A stretch of 22,977 bases of DNA from a virus. The notes under the pieces were generated by a model. The model ran no database searches, had not been told where the DNA came from, and worked only from the letters and a program-made list of their open reading frames with translations. Location: the IMG/VR virus record IMGVR_UViG_3300008113_005418, positions 1 to 22,977 of that record. One strand, written 5' to 3'. The position numbers and the translations under genes are program-made. Shown here piece by piece: positions 3,777 through 19,029 of the stretch (its first letter is position 1; every line of letters begins with the position of its first letter).

Positions 3777-3805
3777 AGTATACATGACCCGGACAAAATT
3801 TACAA
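3777..3805 (-). promoter_or_regulatory. Possible sigma70 promoter TTGTAA-17-TATACT
   Basis: The minus strand has TTGTAA (3805..3800), a 17-base spacer and TATACT (3782..3777). The -35 box has 4 of 6 matches and overlaps the stop codon of the upstream gene. It is a weaker call than the promoters at 9084, 9914 and 17568. Confidence 0.35.
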
Positions 3806-5188
3806 CCTGCGCTCGCTCAAATAGTCTTCGTCTATGGGTTGATTGTCCCGGCGTTGGTAACTGGCTGTCATGCCTGCTCCCGCACCAGAGGTATTGGCTG
3901 TAGTGCCTGTGGCTGACACAGTTTCTAGTGTTGCTGCCCAGCCTTGATTTTCTTCTACATCTGCTGATTCAAATTGATCAAAATCCTTGGCTCGACGCTG
4001 CTCACTGCCCTGGGCAGGAAATTGTGGTTTTGTTTGGGCGGTCTGTGCTGTTGACTTTTGAATTTTTTGAGCAGCAGCGTCTTGTGCCTTAGACATCAAA
4101 AAGTTTTTGGTACGAGCATCCAAGGTCCTACCATCTTCTACTGCACGTTGAACCAGCACTTTGTAATATTTGTTGGTGAGTTCGACTTGTTGTGCGTTGA
4201 TATCGGGCATGCTTTGAGCACCAGAGCCCATGGCAGCCAGCGCCATGGCACCACCTGCCACAACATCTTTCCAGCCCTCAGCTACAGAAGTCCGATCGGT
4301 TGCAATAGTTTTGATCTGCTTGGCAATTGCAAGTGCTTGCTCTCCCTGGCGCTGGGTCATGGCCTGTTTGAACTCAGCAATCAGTTTGGTCAGGGCATGG
4401 CGCTCAGCATCGCTGATGTTGCCCACACGATAGCCTTCTAGGGCCCGCATGATTCGATCAGCATTGTACATTTTCACAATGTCTCGCGCTTTTAAGTAAG
4501 CACCTGTGGCCAAGCCTGCGCCCATAGCAGCCAACACACTCAGTATTTCGCCGTAAAATTGAGCATCTGACATGAATTCCACGCTTTCCGCCACATCCGA
4601 TGCACCACCAATGGCAGCGTCTAGGAGTTTGACCACTGTGGCCGCAAGCTTGGCATTGCCCTGTGTGCGTGGATACAGGCTCATGACCAAGGCAGTTTTT
4701 CTGCGTTGGTCTAGTGTAGGCCAGGCCGTGCGTATTTGTGTGGCCGATGTCATGCCCGGACCAAACTCCACTGTGGGCAAGTAGGCCATGTAGGCATGTT
4801 TTGAAAAAGGTTCTAGCTTTTTGGCACCCAACAAGGGCTGCAAGTAACTGGGGGAGCCATCACGTTTGACGCCCCCTGCTTGTGGTGGCTTTGTAGCGTC
4901 TTTTTCTGATCGCACAAAAATCAGTACATCTCGGTTGGGGTCAAATCGAGCAGTAATTTCCTCAGCACGGAAAGGGCTTTTGACCTGCACAAAATGTCCT
5001 GGTTCCACACCAGCTAGTTTGGCCAGTTTTTCTTTTACTGGGAAAGGGAATGGTCTTGCACTGGTGTCGTTGGTTGCTGCCACATACACTTCGGCGTCAG
5101 GAAATGCTCGCTGTGCACTTTGATACAGAGCCAGATGCCCTGCGTGAAATGGATGAAAACCTCCCGGCATGATTACTACTGTGGCCAT
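3800..5188 (-). CDS. Nucleotidylyltransferase domain fused to a long alpha-helical, Ala/Gln-rich phage region
   Basis: The product has 462 residues. The N-terminus MATVVIMPGG-FHPFHAGH (HxGH motif at residues 15-18) and TSATQIR (147-153) are the two hallmark motifs of the HIGH nucleotidylyltransferase superfamily (cytidylyl-, NMN- or phosphopantetheine-adenylyltransferase-like), so residues 1 to about 190 form the enzyme domain. The rest (about 195-462) is unlike any enzyme I recognise: helical, rich in Ala, Gln and Lys, with two VAE[SG] tetrapeptides (199-202, 302-305) and a Thr/Gly-rich tail. It may be a virion-associated segment. The substrate is unknown. The start ATG 5188 follows CTGTT with no Shine-Dalgarno, and a GCTAAATA octamer lies 5 bases upstream. 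A second, small nucleotidylyltransferase occurs at 14482. Confidence 0.8.
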   Translation of the reverse strand: MATVVIMPGGFHPFHAGHLALYQSAQRAFPDAEVYVAATNDTSARPFPFPVKEKLAKLAGVEPGHFVQVKSPFRAEEITARFDPNRDVLIFVRSEKDATKPPQAGGVKRDGSPSYLQPLLGAKKLEPFSKHAYMAYLPTVEFGPGMTSATQIRTAWPTLDQRRKTALVMSLYPRTQGNAKLAATVVKLLDAAIGGASDVAESVEFMSDAQFYGEILSVLAAMGAGLATGAYLKARDIVKMYNADRIMRALEGYRVGNISDAERHALTKLIAEFKQAMTQRQGEQALAIAKQIKTIATDRTSVAEGWKDVVAGGAMALAAMGSGAQSMPDINAQQVELTNKYYKVLVQRAVEDGRTLDARTKNFLMSKAQDAAAQKIQKSTAQTAQTKPQFPAQGSEQRRAKDFDQFESADVEENQGWAATLETVSATGTTANTSGAGAGMTASYQRRDNQPIDEDYLSERRL

Positions 5189-6801: not shown

Positions 6802-9060
6802 TTAGGCTCCGGGGAAACGAATGATTCCGTCATCGTCTACTACCGGAATCTCGTGTGCAACCACGTCAAACACCACATCTTCTCCGGACATGTCAGCTGC
6901 AATGTCGCAGTTGCTGAGTCGATCAAACAAGATCCGCTTGCTAAGTGGCACACGGATCAACTGATCGATCTTGCGGCTCAGAGGTCGTGCACCCATCTTG
7001 GCATCATAGCCCTTGTCAGCCAGCATGTCTACCACAGCTTCGGTCAGGGTCAAGCGGATGTTTTTGTTGGCCAGACTTGTCTGCAGTTCTTGTGTGAACT
7101 TCAGCACCACTTTCTTGATGGCCAGGGTATCCAGGCGGGAGAATTTCACAATCTGATCGATACGGTTACGCATTTCAGGTTTGAAGAACTCCCGGAGTGC
7201 TCGTTCGTCTTCGCCGGTCTTTTCCTGTGATCCAAAGCCAATCATGTTGCCTTCGGCGGCAGCAGCACCCAGGTTAGATGTCAGGATAATGATGGAGTTC
7301 TTGACGTTGACCTTTTTGCCATTGCTGGAGGTCAACACACCTTCGTCCAGCATCTGCAGCAGGATGTTGGATACATCAGGGTGTGCTTTTTCAATCTCGT
7401 CAAACAGGATGATGCTAAACGGGTTCTTGCTGATATCCGAGATCAGTTTGCCGCCACCCACACTGCCGTCCTCAAAGCCCACATAGCCCGGAGGTGCACC
7501 AATCAAACTTGATACACTGTGGCGTTCCTGGAACTCACTCATGTCATATTTCAGCAAGGGCATGTCCAGGTTGGCACTCAGTAGTCGAGCCAGTTCGGTC
7601 TTGCCTGTGCCTGTTGGGCCCAAGAACAAGAAACTGGCCATGGGTCGCTTTTCGTTGCTGATGCCAGCAAAGCTGATGTACACACGATCCAGCACAGCAT
7701 CCACAGCAGCATCTTGACCGTACAGCTTTTGCTTGATGTTTGATTCCAGTTCCACAATCTTGGCCGATCGCTCGTTCTGCAGTTTGTCTGTTGGCACACC
7801 AGTCATGCGAGCCACCTGCTGTTCGATCATGTCACGGGTGATAGTGACTGTGCCCGCATCTTTCACACGCTCCCTAGCACAAGCAGCGTCAATGATGTCG
7901 ATACTTTTGTCAGGATTTTTGCGGTCATGAATGTAACGATTGGCCAGTTCCACTGCAGTGGTCATAGCTTCGGTGTCAATTAACACATTGTGAAACTGCT
8001 CCAGGCGTGGGCTGAGTCCAATCAGGATCTGTTCTGTGGTAGCAGTATCAGGTTCGTCAATGGCCAGGCGATAAAAACGACGCATGAGTGCACGGTCCTT
8101 TTCAAAGCTTTCGTAGAACTCTTCCCAGGTGGTTGACGCCACAATCTTGAGACTGCCCCGGGTGATCGCCGGCTTCAGCATGTTGGCAAAATCCAGTCCT
8201 GCACTGGAGCCTGCTCCTGCACCTTTCATAGTGTGTGCTTCGTCCACAAACAAGATACAGTTCTTTTTGGCTTCTAAGGCTGCAATCACAGCCTTGAACT
8301 TTTCTTCGAACTCGCCACGATATTTAGATCCTGCTAGGAGTGAACCAATTTCCAAGCTCCAGACTTCATGTCCTTTTAGAAACTCAGGCACACGCCCTGC
8401 AATGATTTCCTGGGCTAGGCCGTCCACAATGTGTGTCTTGCCCACACCTGGATCGCCTACCATTAGCACGTTGGCCTTGAAGCGTCGAGCCAACACAGTG
8501 ATCATTTCTTCCAGTTCTTTACCACGGCCAATCATGGGCTCCAGCTGATTCTTTTCGGCACGAGCAGTGAGGCTGGTGCAGTACTCGGTCAGCACTTCGT
8601 CGGCCTGCTGAGTGCTCATTTTGACATCTGAAGGTTTGTAGTTCTTTTGCCAGAACTCCACAAATTCTGCTTTCTTCATGCCATATTTCAGCATGTAGTA
8701 TTGTGCATGACTGTTGCCTTCGCTCATGATTGACAGATACAGATCAATCACGCTGAGTGCCCTACGACCAGTAAACATCACCTGCACGTTGGCACGGTTG
8801 AAAATTCTCTCCAGAGCCTGGGTCTTTTTGGGTGTGTCCACATTGCTTTTGACCAGGCTCACCAGGCTTGTGATGTAAGCATCTAGTTCCAGGTCCATCT
8901 GATCCACTGCTACGCCAAAAGCGTCGGCTGTTTTGCGAAATGGAGCAAACCGGATTATGCTCAACAACAGGTGTTCTGTGGTCACATATTCGTGTTGTTT
9001 TTGCTGTGCAATTTTCACAGCCTGATCCACAATGTGTTCAATTTCGGGAGTGGGGGTCAT
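6802..9060 (-). CDS. clpA: ClpA-like AAA+ unfoldase with intact ClpP-binding-type loop
   Basis: The product has 752 residues, full length for ClpA (about 758 in E. coli). Order: an N-domain with the Clp repeat start EYVTTEHLLLSI (24-35); AAA-1 with Walker A GDPGVGKT (202-209), Walker B ILFVDEAH (269-276) and arginine finger region RALMRRF (323-329); AAA-2 with Walker A GPTGTGKT (481-488), Walker B ILFDEIEKAH (551-560) and sensor 2 GARPLSRK (690-697). The ClpB/Hsp104 coiled-coil middle domain is absent. MIGFGSQ (606-612) aligns with the IGL loop by which E. coli ClpA docks on ClpP, and the following FFKPEMRNRID matches the same spot in ClpA. This points to a phage adaptor-type unfoldase that could use host ClpP. 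ATG 9060 has AAAGGA upstream and a sigma70 promoter at 9084-9112. The bacterial ClpS/ClpA pair is not seen here. Confidence 0.93.
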   Translation of the reverse strand: MTPTPEIEHIVDQAVKIAQQKQHEYVTTEHLLLSIIRFAPFRKTADAFGVAVDQMDLELDAYITSLVSLVKSNVDTPKKTQALERIFNRANVQVMFTGRRALSVIDLYLSIMSEGNSHAQYYMLKYGMKKAEFVEFWQKNYKPSDVKMSTQQADEVLTEYCTSLTARAEKNQLEPMIGRGKELEEMITVLARRFKANVLMVGDPGVGKTHIVDGLAQEIIAGRVPEFLKGHEVWSLEIGSLLAGSKYRGEFEEKFKAVIAALEAKKNCILFVDEAHTMKGAGAGSSAGLDFANMLKPAITRGSLKIVASTTWEEFYESFEKDRALMRRFYRLAIDEPDTATTEQILIGLSPRLEQFHNVLIDTEAMTTAVELANRYIHDRKNPDKSIDIIDAACARERVKDAGTVTITRDMIEQQVARMTGVPTDKLQNERSAKIVELESNIKQKLYGQDAAVDAVLDRVYISFAGISNEKRPMASFLFLGPTGTGKTELARLLSANLDMPLLKYDMSEFQERHSVSSLIGAPPGYVGFEDGSVGGGKLISDISKNPFSIILFDEIEKAHPDVSNILLQMLDEGVLTSSNGKKVNVKNSIIILTSNLGAAAAEGNMIGFGSQEKTGEDERALREFFKPEMRNRIDQIVKFSRLDTLAIKKVVLKFTQELQTSLANKNIRLTLTEAVVDMLADKGYDAKMGARPLSRKIDQLIRVPLSKRILFDRLSNCDIAADMSGEDVVFDVVAHEIPVVDDDGIIRFPGA

Positions 9061-9083
9061 TGATTTCCTTTAGGGGTTTGTTT

Positions 9084-9112
9084 ATTATATTACTTACGTA
9101 GCTGATTTGCAA
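9084..9112 (-). promoter_or_regulatory. Sigma70 promoter TTGCAA-17-TATAAT for clpA
   Basis: The minus strand has TTGCAA (9112..9107, 4 of 6), exactly 17 bases, then a perfect TATAAT (9089..9084). It lies in the 66-base gap between dnaJ and clpA and would give a leader of about 17-18 bases containing AAAGGA. It suggests clpA can be read by unmodified host polymerase. Confidence 0.7.
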
Positions 9113-9126
9113 ACAATCTGACAATA

Positions 9127-9906
9127 TTATGATCGGTGTTGTTGTATTGCTGTGACTATTTCGGGTGCGATGATTTTGGGAATTTGAGCCTGCATGCGAA
9201 TCATTAGGTCACCTTTTTGCCCATGTCGATCTTGTATGCCATGTCCACGCAGGCGCATCACTGTGCCGGGTTGGGTACCAGCCGGCACCCGAACCACTAG
9301 ATTGTGACCCAGTATGTTGGTGACTTCTACTTCGGCACCCAAAATCATGTCCCAGATGCTGATCCTGTGTTCGGTATGTAGATTTAGACCTTCTCGACGC
9401 CACTGTGCCATGGGCTGTATTCGAAACTGCACCACCAGGTCCATGCCCCCAGGTGCAACTCCACCGTACTGCACCTGGTCTCCGTCGTCAATGCCTCGAG
9501 GCACCTCAATGGCCACTGTGCTGGAGCCAGCAGAGGTGCTGACATTCACAGCCCGGCTTCCGCCCTGTGCTACATCTTGTAGGCTTACCCAGATGGTCAT
9601 TCTCACATGATTGCGTCGAGACTGTTGCGGTTGTCCAAATTGTTGCCCGAACATCTGCCCAAACATGTCGTGCATGTTGAATCCACCGCCACCGGGAAAT
9701 CCCGAAAACTGTGGACGGGGATTGTCGTATTCAGCTCGTCGTGCGTCGTCGCCCAGCACACCATATGCTTCTTGTATTTCCTGAAACTTGACAGTGTCGC
9801 CGCCTTTGTCCGGATGAAATTTTGATGCAAGCTTTCTATACGCCTGCTTTATTTCGTCAGGCAAAGCCGACTTGTCTACACCTAGTATTTGATAATAGTT
9901 TTTCAC
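9127..9906 (-). CDS. dnaJ: DnaJ/CbpA-like J-domain co-chaperone without zinc finger
   Basis: The product has 259 residues. The J domain fills residues 2-62: [16 protein letters not shown], the essential HPD (31-33), and [14 protein letters not shown] Gly/Phe-rich linker (68-93) follows, then two C-terminal beta-sandwich substrate-binding domains (about 100-259; [30 protein letters not shown]). The four CxxCxGxG zinc motifs of class A DnaJ are absent, so this is class B, CbpA-like. It should stimulate host DnaK. The only start that keeps the J domain is GTG 9906, with no Shine-Dalgarno. A near-consensus sigma70 promoter (9914-9942) would start transcription almost at this codon. It precedes clpA, forming a chaperone/unfoldase pair. 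Confidence 0.92.
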
Positions 9907-12208: not shown

Positions 12209-13429
12209 ATGAACGTATTGATACTAACTCCTGACGCAGTAGGCAGCACATTGCTACAAAGAATGCTAACAATTTACATGCAGTTGCATGAGTTTGATCG
12301 CCCAGTGATTAATTTACACGAGTTGACCAATGGACTTGCACGTTACTACAGCCCCGAATTTAACCAGGAGTTGGTTGGCAAAAAAGAAGTAAAAAACTGG
12401 GGATATTATCAAACCCTTGAAGAAATTGCCCAGTTACTCAGCAGCGTGGATCATTACAAAACGTCGAGACTGGCACATTATCATATTCGTCAACGCGGAG
12501 ACACAGTTGAACAACAGATTCCTTTTTATCAGTATCTTAATGAAAATTTTTATGTAGTTGCTTGCAGGCGTGCCAATGTGTTTGAACATGCTCTTAGTAT
12601 GACACTTAACAAAATTACCAAAAAACTAAACGTCTATGACGCTTACGAAAAAATTGACACTTTTTATGAAATATACCGTTCAGGAGTAAATTTAGATTCT
12701 ACAGTGTTTGTTGGTCAACTAAATGCCTATCGCCAATATATAGAATGGAGCGAGCAACATTTTAATATCAGTTCTTATTTTAACTACGAAAAAGATGTTC
12801 CTAGATTAGAAGAATTCATTTTAGATCTTCCGGTGTTTAGCAGTCAGCCCAATAGAATCACCTGGGAGAAAAATTTTGGATTATCATTTAACGACTGGAA
12901 TAGATTGCATTATGCCCGCAGTAATTTAAACAGTTTGTCACTGGAATCACGACAAGAATTTGGTAATTTGGCTCTAGAGCATGCTAAGGTAGTGTCTGAA
13001 TATCAACAACTTGCTCCTGAGCACTGGCCTCCCGTAAATTCATCTGACGATTTTAACAAACTTCCAACTGCAATAAAAAATCAATGGGCACAGAATTTTA
13101 TCAGTCAGCAAGGTATAATTCCTTTACTAGACAGCAAGACACAACAAAATTTAATGCAGTACAATAATGGATATGTGTCTGCGCAAAAAACTATAAATCA
13201 AATGGTGGATCTAGGTATTATAATCAACGGCCCACCAATTAAAAAACAAACCCTGGCAGAGAAAAGAAAAATAATAAAAAATTACCAAGAATTACTTGCA
13301 GTGTACAATGCCTGGGCGGAGAAAAATTCAAATATTGCTAGTGTATTAGACGAAAAAAATTTGTTAGATCAAGGTCAACAAGAAAAACAATTCTGGAACA
13401 AATCATTAACCTCGTTGATCAGCCGTTGA
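12209..13429 (+). CDS. Sulfotransferase-like protein (P-loop, PAPS-type), AT-rich
   Basis: The product has 406 residues. The N-terminus NVLILTPDAVGSTLLQRML has a strand then a P-loop-like turn (7-16) and helix, like the 5'-PSB loop of sulfotransferases. ACRRANVFEHALSM (118-131) fits the 3'-phosphate-binding motif (R...S). The C-terminal half is helical and charged, without recognised domain. It would transfer sulfate from PAPS, if the fold holds; the acceptor is unknown. It is on plus, against its neighbours, and visibly more AT-rich than the lysis genes. Its 3' end overlaps the convergent SGNH gene by 11 bases. No Shine-Dalgarno precedes the ATG. Confidence 0.7.
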   Translation: MNVLILTPDAVGSTLLQRMLTIYMQLHEFDRPVINLHELTNGLARYYSPEFNQELVGKKEVKNWGYYQTLEEIAQLLSSVDHYKTSRLAHYHIRQRGDTVEQQIPFYQYLNENFYVVACRRANVFEHALSMTLNKITKKLNVYDAYEKIDTFYEIYRSGVNLDSTVFVGQLNAYRQYIEWSEQHFNISSYFNYEKDVPRLEEFILDLPVFSSQPNRITWEKNFGLSFNDWNRLHYARSNLNSLSLESRQEFGNLALEHAKVVSEYQQLAPEHWPPVNSSDDFNKLPTAIKNQWAQNFISQQGIIPLLDSKTQQNLMQYNNGYVSAQKTINQMVDLGIIINGPPIKKQTLAEKRKIIKNYQELLAVYNAWAEKNSNIASVLDEKNLLDQGQQEKQFWNKSLTSLISR

Positions 13430-14285
13430 AATTTTCAAGTATCTTCTGAACAAAAAAATTACTAGTGACAAGGTCAAAATGATGGTAATCTCTAGCATAG
13501 TCTAGATTTGACAACTGAAGTAATTGATTCTGTCTATAAAAATTATTTGATAAAAACCAAATATCAAAATTTACCTGTGTAAACACACTTCTAGATTCTT
13601 TTTTTACATGATCAGGCAACTGATTGAATTCAGTCAGTGTAGACGGAAAAGAGTCAGGCCAAGAAACATCTTTAATGTTGTTCCAACTTCTTGTTACGTG
13701 CTCAAAAATCTCGTTCACATCAGAATTTGGTATTATTCCATTGAATATGGTAGTGCCTGCATTGGATTTTTTTAAACTGATATAACAATTAATAAAATTT
13801 GTTATATTGTCAGATTCTGAATCGTATTTGTCAGATCTCACTCTTCTGTCTTCGTCGGGTAAGTTAGTGTCAGGCAACTCTCTACGATGACCATAAGACC
13901 ATAACACTACCATTTGTTTAGGCGCAACTTCTTTAATAATTTGCTGAGATCGACGACTAATCCAGTTATTACTGGCACCGTCCATGCTGACATTGATGCA
14001 TCGACGACCAGTTGCAGCAGACAGCACCTGCGGCCATGTAAAATTGTACGGGCTACCAACGCCCACAGTAAAACTGTCACCCACACACCATATGGAGTTT
14101 TTCAACTCACTTAAAGATTGAGGCCATTCCGCGTCTCTAAATCCTCGACTGTTATAGTTGTATTCAACATGATGCGGATATGATCGAAAGTGATCTTTGT
14201 TCAAACATTCTTGTAAACAATCTATACCTGAAAATTTCCATTTTTTATTTTTTCTTGATTGCAGAATCAAATCACCTAATATCAT
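13419..14285 (-). CDS. SGNH/GDSL-type hydrolase-like protein
   Basis: I choose ATG 14285, which overlaps the stop of the DUF2061 gene as ATGA; a TTG at 14300 would add five residues. The product has 288 residues. CVGDSFTVGVG (67-77) contains the GDS nucleophile block, DGASNN carries the block III G-x-x-N oxyanion residues, and RDYHHF (265-270) gives the C-terminal D-x-x-H. So the Ser/Asp/His set of an esterase or lipase-like SGNH enzyme looks complete. It is the last gene of the coupled 13.4-17.6 kb cassette and, like the opposing sulfotransferase gene, is AT-rich. It could remove acyl groups from a surface glycan. Confidence 0.75.
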   Translation of the reverse strand: MILGDLILQSRKNKKWKFSGIDCLQECLNKDHFRSYPHHVEYNYNSRGFRDAEWPQSLSELKNSIWCVGDSFTVGVGSPYNFTWPQVLSAATGRRCINVSMDGASNNWISRRSQQIIKEVAPKQMVVLWSYGHRRELPDTNLPDEDRRVRSDKYDSESDNITNFINCYISLKKSNAGTTIFNGIIPNSDVNEIFEHVTRSWNNIKDVSWPDSFPSTLTEFNQLPDHVKKESRSVFTQVNFDIWFLSNNFYRQNQLLQLSNLDYARDYHHFDLVTSNFFVQKILENFNG

Positions 14286-14482
14286 TGTTGACCCCAGCAA
14301 ATTTTGTTCCAGATGCGTTCGTGCGCATAATAAAGTATGGTATTGGTAACCATCTGTGCAAGCCCAATTACACCAGCCACGGCAAAATTACCGGTCAACA
14401 AATATGCAATCAAGAATGTGGCACCGGACCCAGTGATGCGCCAACTGATGGTTTTGACCAAGCTTCTGCGTGGTGAGTCCAT
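14282..14482 (-). CDS. DUF2061 family small membrane protein
   Basis: The product has 66 residues: a basic start (SPRRSLVKTISWRITGS), a hydrophobic segment FLIAYLLTG (about 23-31), a second one from AVAGVIGLAQMV, and the end TILYYAHERIWNKICWG. The K-[AT]-x-[ST]-WR-x-x-[AG]-[ST] start and YYxHERxW end match DUF2061 as I recall it. It would be an inner-membrane protein of unknown function. Its start overlaps the stop of the nucleotidylyltransferase gene as TAATG, and its stop overlaps the SGNH start, so it belongs to the coupled cassette. Confidence 0.82.
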   Translation of the reverse strand: MDSPRRSLVKTISWRITGSGATFLIAYLLTGNFAVAGVIGLAQMVTNTILYYAHERIWNKICWGQQ

Positions 14483-14892
14483 TACAGTTTGCCCGCAGCT
14501 CGTAACTCGGCACGTATTTGAGTGGCAGAAATTGAGTGAATTTCTTCGCCTAGATCATGCTGTGAGAATGTGTAGCCTACCCCGCGGCCGTAGCTGATGT
14601 CCACAATGTTGGGCACCTGCATGATGATATAATCCTCGTTGTAGACAAATCCTTCCGCAGCCAAAGCATCAACAATGTTGGCCTTGACAGTGTCTAGGTC
14701 AAACGGATTGTCTGTCTGTGCAGCAGTGCGCCCAGCGCCAGCATCCTGCCCCACAATGCCACCAACGTCACGAATCTGAATACACACTTGCCCAGTTTCC
14801 ATCAAGGCTTTTTTAAACAGTGCAGTGTGTCCTGGGTGCCAAGGTTGCCACCGGCCCAACATCTGTGTAGTGGGTCGTTTCCAATCAAACAT
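14482..14892 (-). CDS. Small nucleotidylyltransferase (HIGH superfamily)
   Basis: The product has 136 residues, near the minimal size for this fold. GRWQPWHPGHTALF (13-26) is the Rossmann HxGH signature and ISATQIRAEL (121-130) the second active-site motif. The WQPWHPGH version and ISATQIR resemble NMN adenylyltransferase (NadM) and ATP-sulfurylase-type families. In marine phages I recall such proteins being named cytidylyl- or adenylyltransferases. The middle region is shorter and has VGGIVGQDAGAGRT. It overlaps the end of the kinase gene by 8 bases, so the two enzymes are probably made together, possibly acting on the same substrate. Confidence 0.8.
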   Translation of the reverse strand: MFDWKRPTTQMLGRWQPWHPGHTALFKKALMETGQVCIQIRDVGGIVGQDAGAGRTAAQTDNPFDLDTVKANIVDALAAEGFVYNEDYIIMQVPNIVDISYGRGVGYTFSQHDLGEEIHSISATQIRAELRAAGKL

Positions 14893-15322
14893 TTGGTGTT
14901 TCCTTTTGATAATAATCTTTGAACACGCGGAACAGTTGTTCGTGTGTGTCAGTGAACCATTTGCTCACATGGTAGTCTACCCGGCTGGGTTTTTCAAACA
15001 TTTTGTTAGTATCTTCAAATCTACCTTCTGCGATAGTGTCCATCCATACCACATAGTCCGCAGCAAATCCTGCACGAGCAGCTTCGGTAGGACACACAAA
15101 GTCTGCCACGGCAATCCGTCCGGCCTTGATCACGCCGTCTGCAAGATATCTCATGCGATGTGCTTGGCGTTGACGACCTTCGGGGGTGAAGTCCCAGTCA
15201 TTGTATTCGGCTCGCACAGCATCAGCATTGAGCCATACTCCACCTACCAGGCGAGCAAAAGGCTCAGCCAAGGTGCTCTTGCCCGAACCAGGCAAGCCCA
15301 TGATTAAAATTCGTTTGGTCAT
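14885..15322 (-). CDS. APS-kinase-like P-loop kinase
   Basis: The product has 145 residues. MTKRILIMGLPGSGKST gives a perfect Walker A (GLPGSGKST, residues 9-17); VWLNADAVRAEYNDWDFT (29-46) and GRQRQAHRM (49-57) follow the D-x-D-x-V-R and R-x-x-x-x-x-R-[IM] pattern of adenylylsulfate kinases (CysC), and FVCP (75-78) matches their conserved FISP-like turn. A shorter or altered substrate is possible. I prefer the ATG at 15322, which overlaps the upstream stop as ATGA and has AGGA 7 bases upstream, over the ATG at 15328. Together with the nucleotidylyltransferase and two sulfotransferase-like proteins it suggests PAPS or nucleotide-activated metabolite chemistry. Confidence 0.82.
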   Translation of the reverse strand: MTKRILIMGLPGSGKSTLAEPFARLVGGVWLNADAVRAEYNDWDFTPEGRQRQAHRMRYLADGVIKAGRIAVADFVCPTEAARAGFAADYVVWMDTIAEGRFEDTNKMFEKPSRVDYHVSKWFTDTHEQLFRVFKDYYQKETPNV

Positions 15323-15939
15323 CGCCATTTCCTTGATGAATGCCGTGCTAGATCGTCTGTGGCATGATGATCTACAGGACTGAAATACTTACTGTTGGTA
15401 TCCACCTCCAGTATTTTTTCCACTGCAGGATTGCTCCAGTCAATAGGAAAGTCCAACTGTTGTGCCACATTTCTCAAATAGGCTGCACCATACAGGTGCA
15501 ACAGTTCATAACTGAGATAAGCATCTGGGGTCAACTGTTGATAGCTGGTCAAGGCCTGACTCAGGGTAGGCTGTCCCCGCACACGCTGTTCCTGCATGGC
15601 CACAATGTTGCGGTCTCTGCCCAGTAGAGCAATCTTTACTGCATGTCCCTGTTGCTGCACTGCGGACACAAATTGCTCAAGGTCAGGCACAGTGAGTGTG
15701 CCGTTGAGAGCGTAAGGAACTGAAATGCTGGTCACATACCAGTCGCTTTGACTCCAGTCAAACTTGGACAGTGTATCAGGTCGGACCCAGTAATCGGCAA
15801 ACGGCTCTTGGTCATGACCCTGCCAGTATTGATCCAGCAGGGCTTGCCAGCCCTGCACGTCAGGATGTAAAGCAAAGATCTTGCTCCACATGTGATTGCC
15901 CGAGCCCTGGGGCCCGGTTAAGATTAACACAGTTTTCAT
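15319..15939 (-). CDS. P-loop sulfotransferase-like protein
   Basis: The product has 206 residues. The start MKTVLILTGPQGSGNHMWSK has a strand followed by a P-loop (G-P-Q-G-S-G-N) and helix, a form I recall from sulfotransferase-like P-loop proteins of phages; the SGN in place of GK[ST] argues against a kinase. A later RDRNIVAMQEQRV segment near 120 could be the 3'-phosphate motif. The first start overlaps the stop of the oxygenase gene (ATGA) and the end overlaps the kinase gene, so it is tightly coupled. The acceptor and reaction are unknown. Confidence 0.65.
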   Translation of the reverse strand: MKTVLILTGPQGSGNHMWSKIFALHPDVQGWQALLDQYWQGHDQEPFADYWVRPDTLSKFDWSQSDWYVTSISVPYALNGTLTVPDLEQFVSAVQQQGHAVKIALLGRDRNIVAMQEQRVRGQPTLSQALTSYQQLTPDAYLSYELLHLYGAAYLRNVAQQLDFPIDWSNPAVEKILEVDTNSKYFSPVDHHATDDLARHSSRKWR

Positions 15940-16604
15940 ACAGTGTATGTTACAGTATTTCTGAGAGTTTGTAAAAACTTTTGGGTCTGTGCAGTTGCTA
16001 CACCAGTTATCTGCAGTGTGACTCGGGGATGACGACCTGCGTTGGCTGTAGAATGTGGCACGTTCTGCCAGTCAAATGTGGTCACGTCTCCGGCCCTCCA
16101 CTGATGATAGTGATAGTTGCCATACTCCCAGAACTGTCCTGGTTGCCAATCAGTTAGCTGTATCATGATTCGCATGACTCGATCAGGATCTTCTGGGCAC
16201 CACTTCTGCAGTTTGTCAATGTGCAAGTTCCAAACTTCACCGGGACGCTGCACATGAATACGATTCATGGTGTCCTCTAAAGCAAACAGGTCGCTGATCC
16301 GCTGCAGCACAGGAGGCATGTTCCAGTTCAGGTGGGTGATTGTGGCAGCAGGATCAACTCCCACACTTTCCAGATCATACGTTTCGGCTGCTTGATCTTC
16401 TGGCGGCGGCTCAACACCACGACCTTTGTAGCCACGAGTGGCCCAGGTGGCCGGTTCAGATTCTGATACAATTTGTTCCAGTTCGGATTGCCACATAGGT
16501 GCAAATCTTCCCAGGCCGATCACTGTGTCCCATCTAGGGTCTGTAACAACAGGATCAAAGTGATAGGCGCTGGTTTGTTTGGTTTGTTGCCAACTGCTTT
16601 GCAT
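15936..16604 (-). CDS. 2-oxoglutarate/Fe(II) oxygenase-like (Asp/Asn beta-hydroxylase type) protein
   Basis: I choose ATG 16604, one base after the stop of the TctC-like gene (TGATATG); an upstream TTG would add three residues. The product has 222 residues. HVQRPGEVWNLHIDK has the H-x-D iron motif (HID, 128-130); VPHSTANAGRHPRVTLQI supplies the distal His (about 184) and the Arg that would bind 2-oxoglutarate (about 194), in a double-stranded beta-helix-like C-terminus. GQFWEYGNYHYHQWRAGDV is a typical pre-motif loop. It would hydroxylate a protein or small molecule. In context it is second in a coupled modification cassette. Confidence 0.78.
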   Translation of the reverse strand: MQSSWQQTKQTSAYHFDPVVTDPRWDTVIGLGRFAPMWQSELEQIVSESEPATWATRGYKGRGVEPPPEDQAAETYDLESVGVDPAATITHLNWNMPPVLQRISDLFALEDTMNRIHVQRPGEVWNLHIDKLQKWCPEDPDRVMRIMIQLTDWQPGQFWEYGNYHYHQWRAGDVTTFDWQNVPHSTANAGRHPRVTLQITGVATAQTQKFLQTLRNTVTYTV

Positions 16605-16605
16605 A

Positions 16606-17574
16606 TCAATCAAACTTCATTTTTTGCACATACGGGAACCATTTTTTACGCAGTTCAGTCAAGTGCTTTCTCACACCTTCGGGAGTATGCTCTGCTGGCA
16701 CAGTAAACATCAAGTTCTCGTCAAAGAACTGTTTGGCTTCGGGGCTGCGAATAGCAGCAACAAACTGCCGGTTGTAGTGGTCCACTTGATTTCTAGGAGT
16801 TCCTGGCGGCATGGCAATGGCCCAGGCAGCATACACGTTGAGTCCAGGCACAGTTTCTTGCCACAGTGGAACATCGGGGATACGAGCCAGGCGCTGTTCA
16901 CCAGCCAGTGCAATGTATTTGACCTTGCCGCCTTTGACCAAGCCATAGGCCACTGCAGTGGGCAAGATACCAAATTCCACATGTCCCCCAGCCACGTCAT
17001 TCACCGCCTGTGCTGGACCTTTATACATCACGCTGCTGACCAGTTGGCGATTGCCTTGGCCTTTGTCCATGAGATATTCAAACACCAGTTTGTGTGCACC
17101 TGCGCCCAGACCAAATGTGATGGGTTGCTGGGTGTTTTTGATGCGAGCCAGCAACTCTTTCGGAGTGTTGGTAGGACTGTTGATGTTGGCCACCACAGCC
17201 AGTGGGCTCTTGGCAATAGTGGTCACAAACTCCATGTCAAATGGATTGAATTTGATCTGATCAGGATACCAGTGGTCAACGGCTGTGAACACACCCTGGT
17301 GACTGGTGACATACAAATTGTCGCCTCGGGGCTCAAGCTTGGTAAACCAGTTCAGGGCAACCACTTCATCTGCTCCTGGACGATTTAGAACCACATAGCT
17401 GGTGCCAGGATTTTGCTTTTCCACAATGGCTGCAACTGCTCTAAAGCTGACTTCGTTGCCAGATCCAGGACCAAAACCTGTGGTCACCGTCACAGTGCGT
17501 GGTGGTTCAAAAGCATGTGCTGCTGTGCCCAAAACAACAGCAGCAGCAGCAATAAGTAATTTTTTCATTGACAT
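16606..17574 (-). CDS. tctC: TctC/Bug-family periplasmic substrate-binding protein
   Basis: The product has 322 residues. A clear Sec signal peptide (MSMKKLLIAAAAVVLGTAAHA, cleavage after Ala21) is followed by a complete Bug (tripartite tricarboxylate transporter) binding protein. Landmarks are the start VTVTTGFGPGSGNEVSFR, the YKGPAQAVNDVAGGHVEFG region near 180-200, and LARIPDVPLWQETVPGL (about 230-246) followed by MPPGTPRNQ. Typical members bind citrate, C4-dicarboxylates or aromatic acids; the ligand here cannot be told. ATG 17574 has AAGGAG (17580-17585) with good spacing. No TctA/TctB membrane genes are visible, so it would depend on the host's. A bacterial-type transport gene in a phage operon is unusual. 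Confidence 0.92.
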   Translation of the reverse strand: MSMKKLLIAAAAVVLGTAAHAFEPPRTVTVTTGFGPGSGNEVSFRAVAAIVEKQNPGTSYVVLNRPGADEVVALNWFTKLEPRGDNLYVTSHQGVFTAVDHWYPDQIKFNPFDMEFVTTIAKSPLAVVANINSPTNTPKELLARIKNTQQPITFGLGAGAHKLVFEYLMDKGQGNRQLVSSVMYKGPAQAVNDVAGGHVEFGILPTAVAYGLVKGGKVKYIALAGEQRLARIPDVPLWQETVPGLNVYAAWAIAMPPGTPRNQVDHYNRQFVAAIRSPEAKQFFDENLMFTVPAEHTPEGVRKHLTELRKKWFPYVQKMKFD

Positions 17575-17597: not shown

Positions 17598-17649
17598 GAA
17601 AAACAAGGCACAAGTAAATTTTTTTGGTGCTTTGTAAAAATTTCAACTT

Positions 17650-17657
17650 TATTTATA
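17650..17657 (-). promoter_or_regulatory. Exact T4 late-promoter octamer TATAAATA for the tctC cassette
   Basis: The minus strand has TATAAATA, identical to the T4 late consensus. It would start transcription about 70 bases before the tctC ATG at 17574. It lies downstream of the plus-strand sigma70 promoter at 17568-17597, so the two promoters face each other. A weaker sigma70-like pair (TTTACT-17-TATACT) is also present on minus in this gap. Confidence 0.6.
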
Positions 17658-17665
17658 AAATTTCT

Positions 17666-18400
17666 ATGAATACCAAAATTTTTGACCTAATCACAAAAAA
17701 TTTACACCAGGCTTTTGCCCTGGCCAAGTATGACACAATACGCAGTGCTATCAGTCCGGATACTTGTGTAGATCAGTTGCCCTGGACACCGGCCCGCTAT
17801 CGCAAGTTCAAAGATGCTGTGACTGCTGAATTGCAACTGGATTCAGATTATGTGGGCACATTAAAAGACATCGTGGCTGATTTAAGCGAGCGATATACTC
17901 ACAGATTTTTTGCTGAAATCTGGAAACCCAGAACCAATGAATACGAATACACAGGCTGGCAACTGGTGGAAGAAATCAACAAACTGAACCCCGAATCTGT
18001 GTTGGACGTGGGCTGCGGATACCATCCGTTCAAGGGTCGCATTCAAAACATTGTGGGCATTGATCCCTACAATAACTTGGCCGACTATGAAGTTGACATC
18101 CTGGACTATCGGGTCCGGCCGGCCAGCTATGATGTGATCATTGCCCTGGGATCTATCAACTTCAACAGCCAGGATGAAATTGAACAACGCTTTGCTCACT
18201 GTGTGAGTTTGTTAAAAACAGGTGGAAAATTTTATTTGCGAGCCAATCCAGGTGTGCCGCACAAAGCCGGTCCGTATGTGGACATTTTTCCTTGGACATT
18301 CGAAATAGTCAATGAGTTTGCAGAACGGTACAATCTGCATCTTGACACATTCAAGCGTGATGCCAACGAACGCCTGTACTTTGTTTACACTAGACTTTGA
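17666..18400 (+). CDS. SAM-dependent class I methyltransferase
   Basis: The product has 244 residues from ATG 17666 (MNTKIFDLITKN); a longer frame from 17624 begins in the AT-rich leader and is less likely. After an alpha-helical N-terminal part, VLDVGCGYHPF (112-122) is motif I, NIVGIDPYNNLADYE (128-142) the acidic strand 2 end, YDVIIALGSINF the motif IV region and LLKTGGKFYLRANPG the motif post-III. So it should methylate using SAM; the target (lipid, small molecule or nucleic acid) is unknown. It lies on plus, with a sigma70 promoter upstream, and its 3' end overlaps the SGNH-like gene by 16 bases. Confidence 0.85.
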   Translation: MNTKIFDLITKNLHQAFALAKYDTIRSAISPDTCVDQLPWTPARYRKFKDAVTAELQLDSDYVGTLKDIVADLSERYTHRFFAEIWKPRTNEYEYTGWQLVEEINKLNPESVLDVGCGYHPFKGRIQNIVGIDPYNNLADYEVDILDYRVRPASYDVIIALGSINFNSQDEIEQRFAHCVSLLKTGGKFYLRANPGVPHKAGPYVDIFPWTFEIVNEFAERYNLHLDTFKRDANERLYFVYTRL

Positions 18401-19029
18401 GATTTAATGTACTCAAATGCTGCCTGATGCGCTTGCTCCAAAGGATGCCAATTTTTGCTAATAGCATAGTTGTTTGTTTGCGCCCACTTTAAAAAAGAGT
18501 GATTCTCAAACCAGGTCATGTGCGGCTTGATTGAATCTTGAAGCATGTCAATTGCACTGTCATGATGCCACTGGGTTTCTAGTATCAGGGGATCTTGTGC
18601 TGTGACAATGAACTTTCTTTTTTGATTTAGTAGTAACTGCGTAGCCTGGCTGATCAAACTCAACGAACGTAGTTTATCTGCGTACTGTGAATGCAAATGT
18701 TTGTAGTAAAACTCAGCTGTATTGGAGATTGCAGCAGGTCTAAGGGTATGCCATTGATCAGTACCTGGGTCAACATAATCAAATCGATCAATCCATGTCC
18801 ATCCAATGACAAAAATTGCAGACTCAGGATCAGCAAGTTGTTGTATCAAAGACTGATATATTTGTAAATTCCCTGCACCTGATTGTGCAAAACATTCGTG
18901 CCTCAATTCAAGGTCTTGAGCTAATAGTGCCGGCCAGGTGTAATCGCTCCATGGATCTTCTGCCAGAAAAGTATCGTGCAGATCATCGCCAAAAATAAAA
19001 CTGCATCCAAAACTTTTTAATTTGTTCAT
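18385..19029 (-). CDS. SGNH-like hydrolase
   Basis: The product has 214 residues, starting MNKLKSFGCSFIFGDDL. The GCSF-x-x-G motif (8-14) takes the place of GDS in block I, as in a group of SGNH-like phage proteins; IFVIGWTWIDRFD is a strand then loop; and the C-terminal KNWHPLEQAHQAAFEYI (about 191-207) has the catalytic-type His (NWHP). The Ser/His pair is visible, the Asp less clear. The second SGNH-type protein of the window; the two are only weakly alike. It is convergent with the methyltransferase gene and AT-rich. The substrate is unknown. Confidence 0.68.
   Translation of the reverse strand: MNKLKSFGCSFIFGDDLHDTFLAEDPWSDYTWPALLAQDLELRHECFAQSGAGNLQIYQSLIQQLADPESAIFVIGWTWIDRFDYVDPGTDQWHTLRPAAISNTAEFYYKHLHSQYADKLRSLSLISQATQLLLNQKRKFIVTAQDPLILETQWHHDSAIDMLQDSIKPHMTWFENHSFLKWAQTNNYAISKNWHPLEQAHQAAFEYIKSQSLV

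Follow-up and report, generated by a model that had tools for sequence, protein, structure and literature searches.

In our study of the IMG/VR virus record IMGVR_UViG_3300008113_005418, we found seven consecutive minus-strand genes (positions 13419-17574) that probably form the core of a phage sulfation cassette. In this cassette, a kinase (KIN) and a compact nucleotidylyltransferase (NT) would supply 3'-phosphoadenosine 5'-phosphosulfate (PAPS) to sulfotransferases. The DNA analyzed, which we call the window, is one strand of 22,977 bases. A preliminary description, made from the letters of the window, had proposed that activation and transfer are joined here in one unit. Our results support this proposal well and sharpen it to sulfate activation and sulfate transfer, based on the families of KIN and of a further protein named X44, the fold of the predicted sulfotransferase ST, and the conserved gene order. 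The role of phage sulfotransferases has been called unclear (PMC10580990), and phage sulfotransferase or cysC genes have been reported as single genes in virome surveys (PMC10580990, PMC8066274, PMC12766990). With a proposed PAPS source and transferases coupled in one conserved unit, the function of phage sulfotransferases becomes directly testable.

Gene content and layout of the cassette

All seven open reading frames of the preliminary description are present at that place and on that strand. Consecutive frames are joined by overlaps, or by a 1-base gap depending on the start chosen, as had also been proposed. In the direction of reading, the genes encode TctC, a tripartite-tricarboxylate (Bug) substrate-binding protein (16606..17574); a predicted 2-oxoglutarate/Fe(II) oxygenase, hereafter 2OG (15936..16613, likely ATG at 16604); ST, a small predicted PAPS-type sulfotransferase of 206 aa (15319..15939); KIN, a P-loop kinase of the adenosine 5'-phosphosulfate (APS) kinase family (14885..15328, likely ATG at 15322); NT, a compact HxGH nucleotidylyltransferase of 136 aa (14482..14892); DUF2061, a predicted membrane protein of 66 aa (14282..14482); and SGNH, an SGNH/GDSL-like hydrolase (13419..14300, likely ATG at 14285). 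With the outermost starts, the overlaps measure 8 bases for TctC/2OG, 4 for 2OG/ST, 10 for ST/KIN, 8 for KIN/NT, 1 for NT/DUF2061, and 19 for DUF2061/SGNH; with the three likely inner ATGs, the TctC/2OG, ST/KIN, and DUF2061/SGNH junctions change to a 1-base gap or to overlaps of 4 bases. The genes may be transcribed together.

The unit reaches further than was first seen. It includes a divergent gene for a methyltransferase-like protein that would use S-adenosylmethionine (MT; 17624..18400, plus strand, likely ATG at 17666), which is the usual left border of the cassette, and usually a second sulfotransferase, X44. The full order is methyltransferase (opposite strand)-TctC-X44-2OG-ST-kinase-NT-DUF2061-SGNH. 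X44, a protein of 207 aa normally encoded between TctC and 2OG, is missing from the cassette of the window.

Conservation of the cassette across viruses

Relatives were gathered by searching viral contigs from many samples with TctC, ST, and 2OG. The collection holds at least 554 viral relatives of ST and at least 188 of 2OG, on contigs of up to 524 kb. We took eight cassette genes as the core set and classified as cassette loci those with at least five of the eight, which gave 62 distinct viral loci. Across these loci, the median identity to the window ranges from 42.7% (TctC) to 73.1% (MT). Other genes of the window occur in a minority of them (DnaJ in 19, ClpA in 14, and the others in 1-7). 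Among the 46 distinct loci anchored on ST with enough flank, MT is present in 40, 2OG in 38, X44 in 37, TctC in 36, KIN in 33, and NT in 31; SGNH lies near ST in 12 of them. The usual order in these loci is <MT TctC X44 2OG ST KIN NT (DUF2061) (SGNH <up406), where up406 is a convergent neighbor described below. The positions of ST and 2OG are exchanged in some loci, and some of the relatives keep SGNH as the last gene of the unit. The preliminary description had named the search for this gene order in other phages as a check on its reading, and the order proved to be kept across dozens of divergent viral contigs, far beyond chance.

The KIN of the window and that of its sister contig (L002, whose TctC is 93% identical) fall inside a phage clade that is widespread (support 0.995) and distant from the KIN sequences of the other cassettes. 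Another lineage of the activation module has thus come to occupy the slot, which suggests that the function of this slot is needed. It could be argued that the cassette is a chance pile-up of unrelated cargo genes, since phages collect cargo beside lysis and tail genes and the window has this setting; however, the persistence of the order across 62 distinct loci, at median identities of 43-73%, and an activation module swapped in place largely refute this explanation, and we consider it extremely unlikely.

The KIN-NT-DUF2061 module also exists independently in hundreds of phages, and KIN-NT is present in ocean bacteria. As a separate observation, in hundreds of aquatic phages, including those of loci L006-L085, KIN-NT occurs apart from the TctC cassette, often accompanied by DUF2061 and in surroundings that look T4-like; KdsA-, KdsB-, and HldE-like genes were recognized by eye in some of these loci.

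The proposed activation module

KIN is placed in the APS-kinase family by its sequence: its Pfam APS_kinase match (PF01583) reaches 31.7 bits against a cut-off of 21.1, with APS_kinase/AAA_33 above cut-off, and its best relative in the PDB is the adenylyl-sulfate kinase 2yvu (E 2e-10). Conserved in 40 sequences, and aligned with 2yvu, are the P-loop (G11-K17), D36 and R39 of DxxR, the substrate-loop residues F47 and R52, and F77 and P80 of FxxP. The P-loop of the window protein, GLPGSGKST, is encoded at 15272..15298 on the minus strand.

NT was recognized by its motifs, its AlphaFold2 (AF2) model, and its fusion to KIN. The alignment shows GRxQPWHxGH and ISATxIR to be invariant or nearly so, the first of them lying within the LGRWQPWHPGH stretch encoded at 14827..14859 (minus strand). 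NT matched no Pfam family, the Sat model (PF01747) included. The fold matches of its model comprise several HxGH adenylyltransferases, among them ATP sulfurylase (E 0.015, not the best match).

The two proteins are closely associated. NT lies within 1.5 kb of KIN in all 41 distinct viral loci anchored on KIN, whereas DUF2061 does so in 17 of the 41. Furthermore, KIN and NT occur as one protein in phrog_10255 (where KIN is the N-terminal half), in loci L003-L005, and in many SAR11 genomes, where the fused proteins have 257-281 aa and are matched by both profiles. This arrangement resembles the bifunctional PAPS synthases (animal PAPSS1/2 and the bacterial SAT/APS kinase fusions), in which a kinase of the APS-kinase family is also paired or fused with an adenylyltransferase of the HxGH superfamily, and the kinase-first order of the fusions is that of animal PAPSS. 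Unlike these enzymes, KIN is shorter, and NT has 136 aa instead of the approximately 400 aa of ATP sulfurylase, is unmatched by the Sat model, and is nearest to NadM. The cassette may contain a new type of enzyme; a sulfate adenylyltransferase of 136 aa, if confirmed, would be one, and a handy tool for making PAPS.

DUF2061, the third partner, was identified by its Pfam match (E 1.3e-22 for the window protein). It was found in 30 of 120 other genomes of the phylum, from which 30 loci were fetched. In one of these loci (L429), a protein whose GTPase domains read as CysN has at its C-terminus a DUF2061 segment that scores slightly below the cut-off (20.9 bits), and in another (L423), DUF2061 has as neighbors an unambiguous CysC (221 bits) and a frame that resembles PAPS reductase. 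Through these two of the 30 loci, both in free-living bacteria, DUF2061 is connected with sulfate activation independently of the phage module.

TRANSFERASES

This section covers the results for X44, ST, and up406. By sequence, X44 belongs to the Sulfotransfer_3 family (PF13469), which was matched by 46 of 59 members at E values up to 1, the best being 1.9e-6; the first X44 member matches weakly (14.8 bits, below the cut-off of 27).

ST is assigned as a predicted PAPS-type sulfotransferase on the strength of its modeled structure. The AF2 model has a mean confidence score (pLDDT) of 95.6, and its best fold match in the PDB is tyrosylprotein sulfotransferase-1 (TPST1) with bound 3'-phosphoadenosine 5'-phosphate (PAP), at an E value of 5e-6 and a template modeling (TM) score of 0.49. 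The further matches include many PAP-bound sulfotransferases mixed with some P-loop kinases. In addition, seven residues of the loop GPQGxGNH (G9, P10, Q11, G12, G14, N15, and H16) are invariant in 71 sequences; in the window, the loop reads GPQGSGNH and is encoded at 15892..15915 on the minus strand. Among the Pfam matches of the 71 members, no sulfotransferase family appeared. Compared with the known PAPS-dependent sulfotransferases (Sulfotransfer_3/Sulfotransfer_1), X44 is alike by family match and ST would be alike by its predicted fold and its putative phosphate-binding loop; ST differs in its lack of a Pfam match and in its small size.

The convergent neighbor up406 (12209..13429, plus strand) is a possible third sulfotransferase-like protein. 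Its motif TPDxVGSTLLQR and its residues R121 and S130 are invariant in 12 sequences, and we take these residues to resemble the two phosphate sites of sulfotransferases. The library search with its profile gave no Pfam support, and Pfam and PDB sequence searches with the ST, 2OG, and up406 profiles returned nothing useful.

KIN-NT in ocean bacteria

Our genome scan identified KIN in three groups, namely SAR11, SAR86, and the marine alphaproteobacteria, and in most cases NT adjoins it. In a sample of 30 KIN-bearing genomes of these three groups, examined for Sat, CysD, NadD, and Sulfotransfer_3, the Sat model matched in 1 genome and CysD in none, while Sulfotransfer_3 was found in 25; an APS_kinase match above cut-off is present in all 30, and in 10 of the 11 SAR86 genomes, KIN is the sole one. 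Across 247 SAR11-family genomes, KIN and Sulfotransfer_3 co-occur much more often than expected (87/35/28/97 in the cross-tabulation, odds ratio 8.6, Fisher p 6e-15). If KIN-NT makes PAPS, it would explain the PAPS supply of streamlined SAR11 and SAR86 cells that lack Sat/CysD and nevertheless have sulfotransferases, and sulfated products would be expected in cells that rank among the most abundant of the sea.

The gene neighborhoods of KIN-NT point in the same direction. In four glycan-type regions of SAR11 (L326, L328, L331, and L342), KIN or KIN-NT directly adjoins Pfam sulfotransferases, and in two other loci (L327 and L333), such sulfotransferases are close without adjoining. In L328 (1-11000), a fused KIN-NT shares the region with a PhyH oxygenase, a CysC-like kinase, two sulfotransferase-like genes, and a short frame that resembles KIN. 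Among the alphaproteobacteria, one group has CysQ about 15 bases upstream of KIN-NT (10 loci; 288 bits against a cut-off of 229). CysQ is a PAP phosphatase, which clears the PAP left by sulfotransferases.

Two observations, from L271, L290, L299, L304, and similar SAR11/SAR86 loci, concern other neighbors of the bacterial genes. In one SAR11 clade, KIN-NT stands between a Rieske oxygenase and an enoyl-CoA hydratase, with a methanethiol-oxidase-like SBP56 protein and a DmdA-like GcvT protein nearby. In SAR86, a gene of 367 aa without a library match overlaps KIN.

Weighing the function of KIN-NT

We give an even chance to a more specific proposal, namely that KIN-NT is a hitherto unrecognized minimal PAPS synthase whose NT would take the place of ATP sulfurylase while lying outside the Sat and CysDN types, that it would be the PAPS source in SAR11 and SAR86, the majority of which have no other recognizable one, and that in large aquatic phages it would form, together with sulfotransferases, a mobile sulfation cassette by which the surface chemistry of infected cells is rewritten. 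The weakest step is the presumed use of sulfate by NT, as no comparison singles out this substrate.

It is important to consider several points that weigh against the sulfation reading as a whole. First, the enzymes themselves: KIN is without a full C-terminal lid, this segment being absent or shortened, and its Pfam match stops at profile position 90 of 152; it also has a Q where many APS kinases have an asparagine that presumably touches APS. The nearest solved sequences of NT are the NadM-type nicotinamide mononucleotide (NMN) adenylyltransferases, through a local match (E 7e-5) that covers the HxGH half; the AF2 model of NT is of no more than fair quality (pLDDT 79.7), none of its fold matches has an E value below 0.001, and hhalign gave a probability of about 3% to ATP sulfurylase and likewise to NadD, favoring neither. 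Second, the genomic context: some SAR11 genomes encode another APS kinase that looks canonical, the marine alphaproteobacteria with CysQ have a weak Sulfotransfer_3 match or none, one SAR11 clade has KIN-NT beside the Rieske oxygenase and methylated-sulfur genes and not beside sulfotransferases, and the 8 kb around most KIN-NT phage loci contain neither ST nor 2OG nor any other cassette gene. Third, the test for co-occurrence of KIN and Sulfotransfer_3 in the 247 SAR11-family genomes is uncorrected for kinship and genome completeness.

The affinity of NT to NadM also bears on a different reading, in which KIN-NT would be a NadR-like system of nicotinamide salvage, with a riboside kinase and an NMN adenylyltransferase restoring nicotinamide adenine dinucleotide (NAD) during infection, and the adjoining transferases would be unrelated cargo. 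Several of the top fold matches of NT are indeed NMN adenylyltransferases, and no NadD match above cut-off was found in the SAR86 genomes. However, KIN belongs to the APS-kinase family and not to the riboside kinases; a separate NadD is above cut-off in 17 of the 30 KIN-bearing genomes, SAR11 and marine alphaproteobacteria among them; SAR86 has another NadD-like domain; and the neighbors are sulfotransferases and CysQ, while DUF2061 occurs with CysN and CysC. Because of the separate NadD genes, the other NadD-like domain in SAR86, and these neighbors, NAD salvage is less likely, and we regard it as an unlikely explanation. The SAR86 domain in question (L396:667-1776) is of the HxGH type and is joined to a domain that looks CinA-type by eye; it is a possible NMN adenylyltransferase of SAR86.

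The KIN-NT pair could also make PAPS for its reduction to sulfide and cysteine, the assimilatory route by which 'cysC' in viromes is usually read. This interpretation agrees with the listing of cysC, cysD, and cysH as viral sulfur genes (PMC8066274, PMC12766990) and with the SAR11 clade whose KIN-NT is near methylated-sulfur genes, but the cassette is without a PAPS reductase, and the partners of KIN-NT, both in phages and in the glycan-type regions of SAR11, are sulfotransferases. We therefore consider assimilation very unlikely.

Accessory proteins and the possible acceptor

TctC matches its Pfam family with 97 bits against a cut-off of 27 (E 1.5e-27). Its solved relatives are binding proteins of tripartite tricarboxylate transporters (TTT), the best being TBP 8hka (E 1e-24), and its N-terminus has a signal-peptide-like stretch. 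The 2OG protein of the window has no Pfam match, as is also the case for the single sequences of ST and NT, and a weak Asp_Arg_Hydrox match was found in 2 of 70 members. Its assignment is based on the metal and 2-oxoglutarate ligands H131-x-D133, H187, and R197, which are invariant in 70 sequences; the HxD iron-binding motif, with the columns H131 and D133, is encoded at 16215..16223 (minus strand). A tblastn search gave a match (E 5e-7) in Synechococcus phage S-SCSM2R to a protein annotated as a 2OG-Fe(II) oxygenase, and the phage 2OG profile detects the PhyH protein in the SAR11 sulfotransferase cluster (L328). The Pfam matches of SGNH to GDSL (E 0.002) and of MT to Methyltransf_25 (E 3e-4, below cut-off) are weak.

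With these proteins, the proposed sulfation pathway would run as follows. NT would adenylylate sulfate with ATP to give APS, and KIN would phosphorylate APS at the 3' hydroxyl to give PAPS, the two, in many cases fused into a single protein, together being a minimal PAPS synthase; the small predicted membrane protein DUF2061 would be part of this activation module. The sulfuryl group would then be transferred to an acceptor by ST, normally by X44 too, and perhaps by up406. Judging by their families, we guess that 2OG probably hydroxylates the acceptor, that MT and SGNH would trim or cap it, and that TctC would be exported to the periplasm, where it probably supplies a host permease with an organic acid. 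A surface glycan, lipid, or metabolite had been suggested as the target in the preliminary description; a cell-surface or adhesin glycan appears the most likely acceptor because of the bacterial neighborhoods.

The presence of an oxygenase raises a further alternative, in which the unit would build a hypermodified DNA base or nucleotide, with hydroxylation by 2OG, activation by KIN and NT, and decoration by the transferases. T4-like phages often modify their DNA, and a 2OG oxygenase, a kinase, and transferases together suit such a scheme. DNA modification systems that contain a sulfotransferase have been proposed for phages (Iyer et al. 2013, as cited in PMC10829341), and PMC10829341 suggests this role for phage sulfotransferases. 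Against it, no DNA-modifying oxygenase is matched by the 2OG family, whose sole weak link to a Pfam oxygenase is the Asp/Asn hydroxylase match mentioned above; the signal-like N-terminus of TctC indicates that this protein would work in the periplasm; and the bacterial pair is located in chromosomal glycan-type regions. On this evidence, DNA modification is improbable.

Relation to known systems

Our search, which was limited to an open-access library, turned up no paper that describes this cassette or proposes KIN-NT as a PAPS synthase. Like the single genes of the virome reports, the cassette involves phage-borne sulfotransferase and APS-kinase-like genes of aquatic viruses; the difference is that here activation and transfer form one conserved unit. 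The cassette also resembles O-antigen conversion modules in its proposed purpose, an altered host surface chemistry in infection, with sulfation proposed here instead of glucosylation or acetylation. PMC10434257, a literature match for phage PAPS, proved to concern PAPS reductase.

Other features of the window

The preliminary description had also pointed to an exact TATAAATA upstream of the unit. This box is present as a single copy (17650..17657, minus strand), about 76 bases upstream of TctC and on the same strand. Shuffling of the sequence yields one or more copies within the window in 25% of cases, so that a single copy is not unusual, and the box occurs at the corresponding place in 1 of 32 relatives, against 0.6 expected. 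It is not conserved, hence it lends the reading no support, and we reject a role as a conserved late promoter.

A nucleotide search of the whole region against the isolated-phage collection gave no match, and a scan of the window for tRNA genes found none. On one flank, the cassette is bordered by a lysis region with an endolysin and two Rz-like spanins, and on the other by genes that look structural by eye. Beyond MT lies the second neighbor gene SGNH2 (18385..19029, minus strand), which has no Pfam match and is often present in relatives (near ST in 19 of the 46 loci). Elsewhere in the window, a ClpA/ClpB-like AAA+ protein of 752 aa adjoins a DnaJ homologue (6802-9906, minus strand), and a protein of 462 aa with an N-terminal cytidylyltransferase-like domain has no PHROG match (3800-5188). 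Finally, a protein of 143 aa (2299-2730) has an above-cut-off match (E 7e-7) to malonyl-CoA decarboxylase, in the C-terminal domain of that enzyme.

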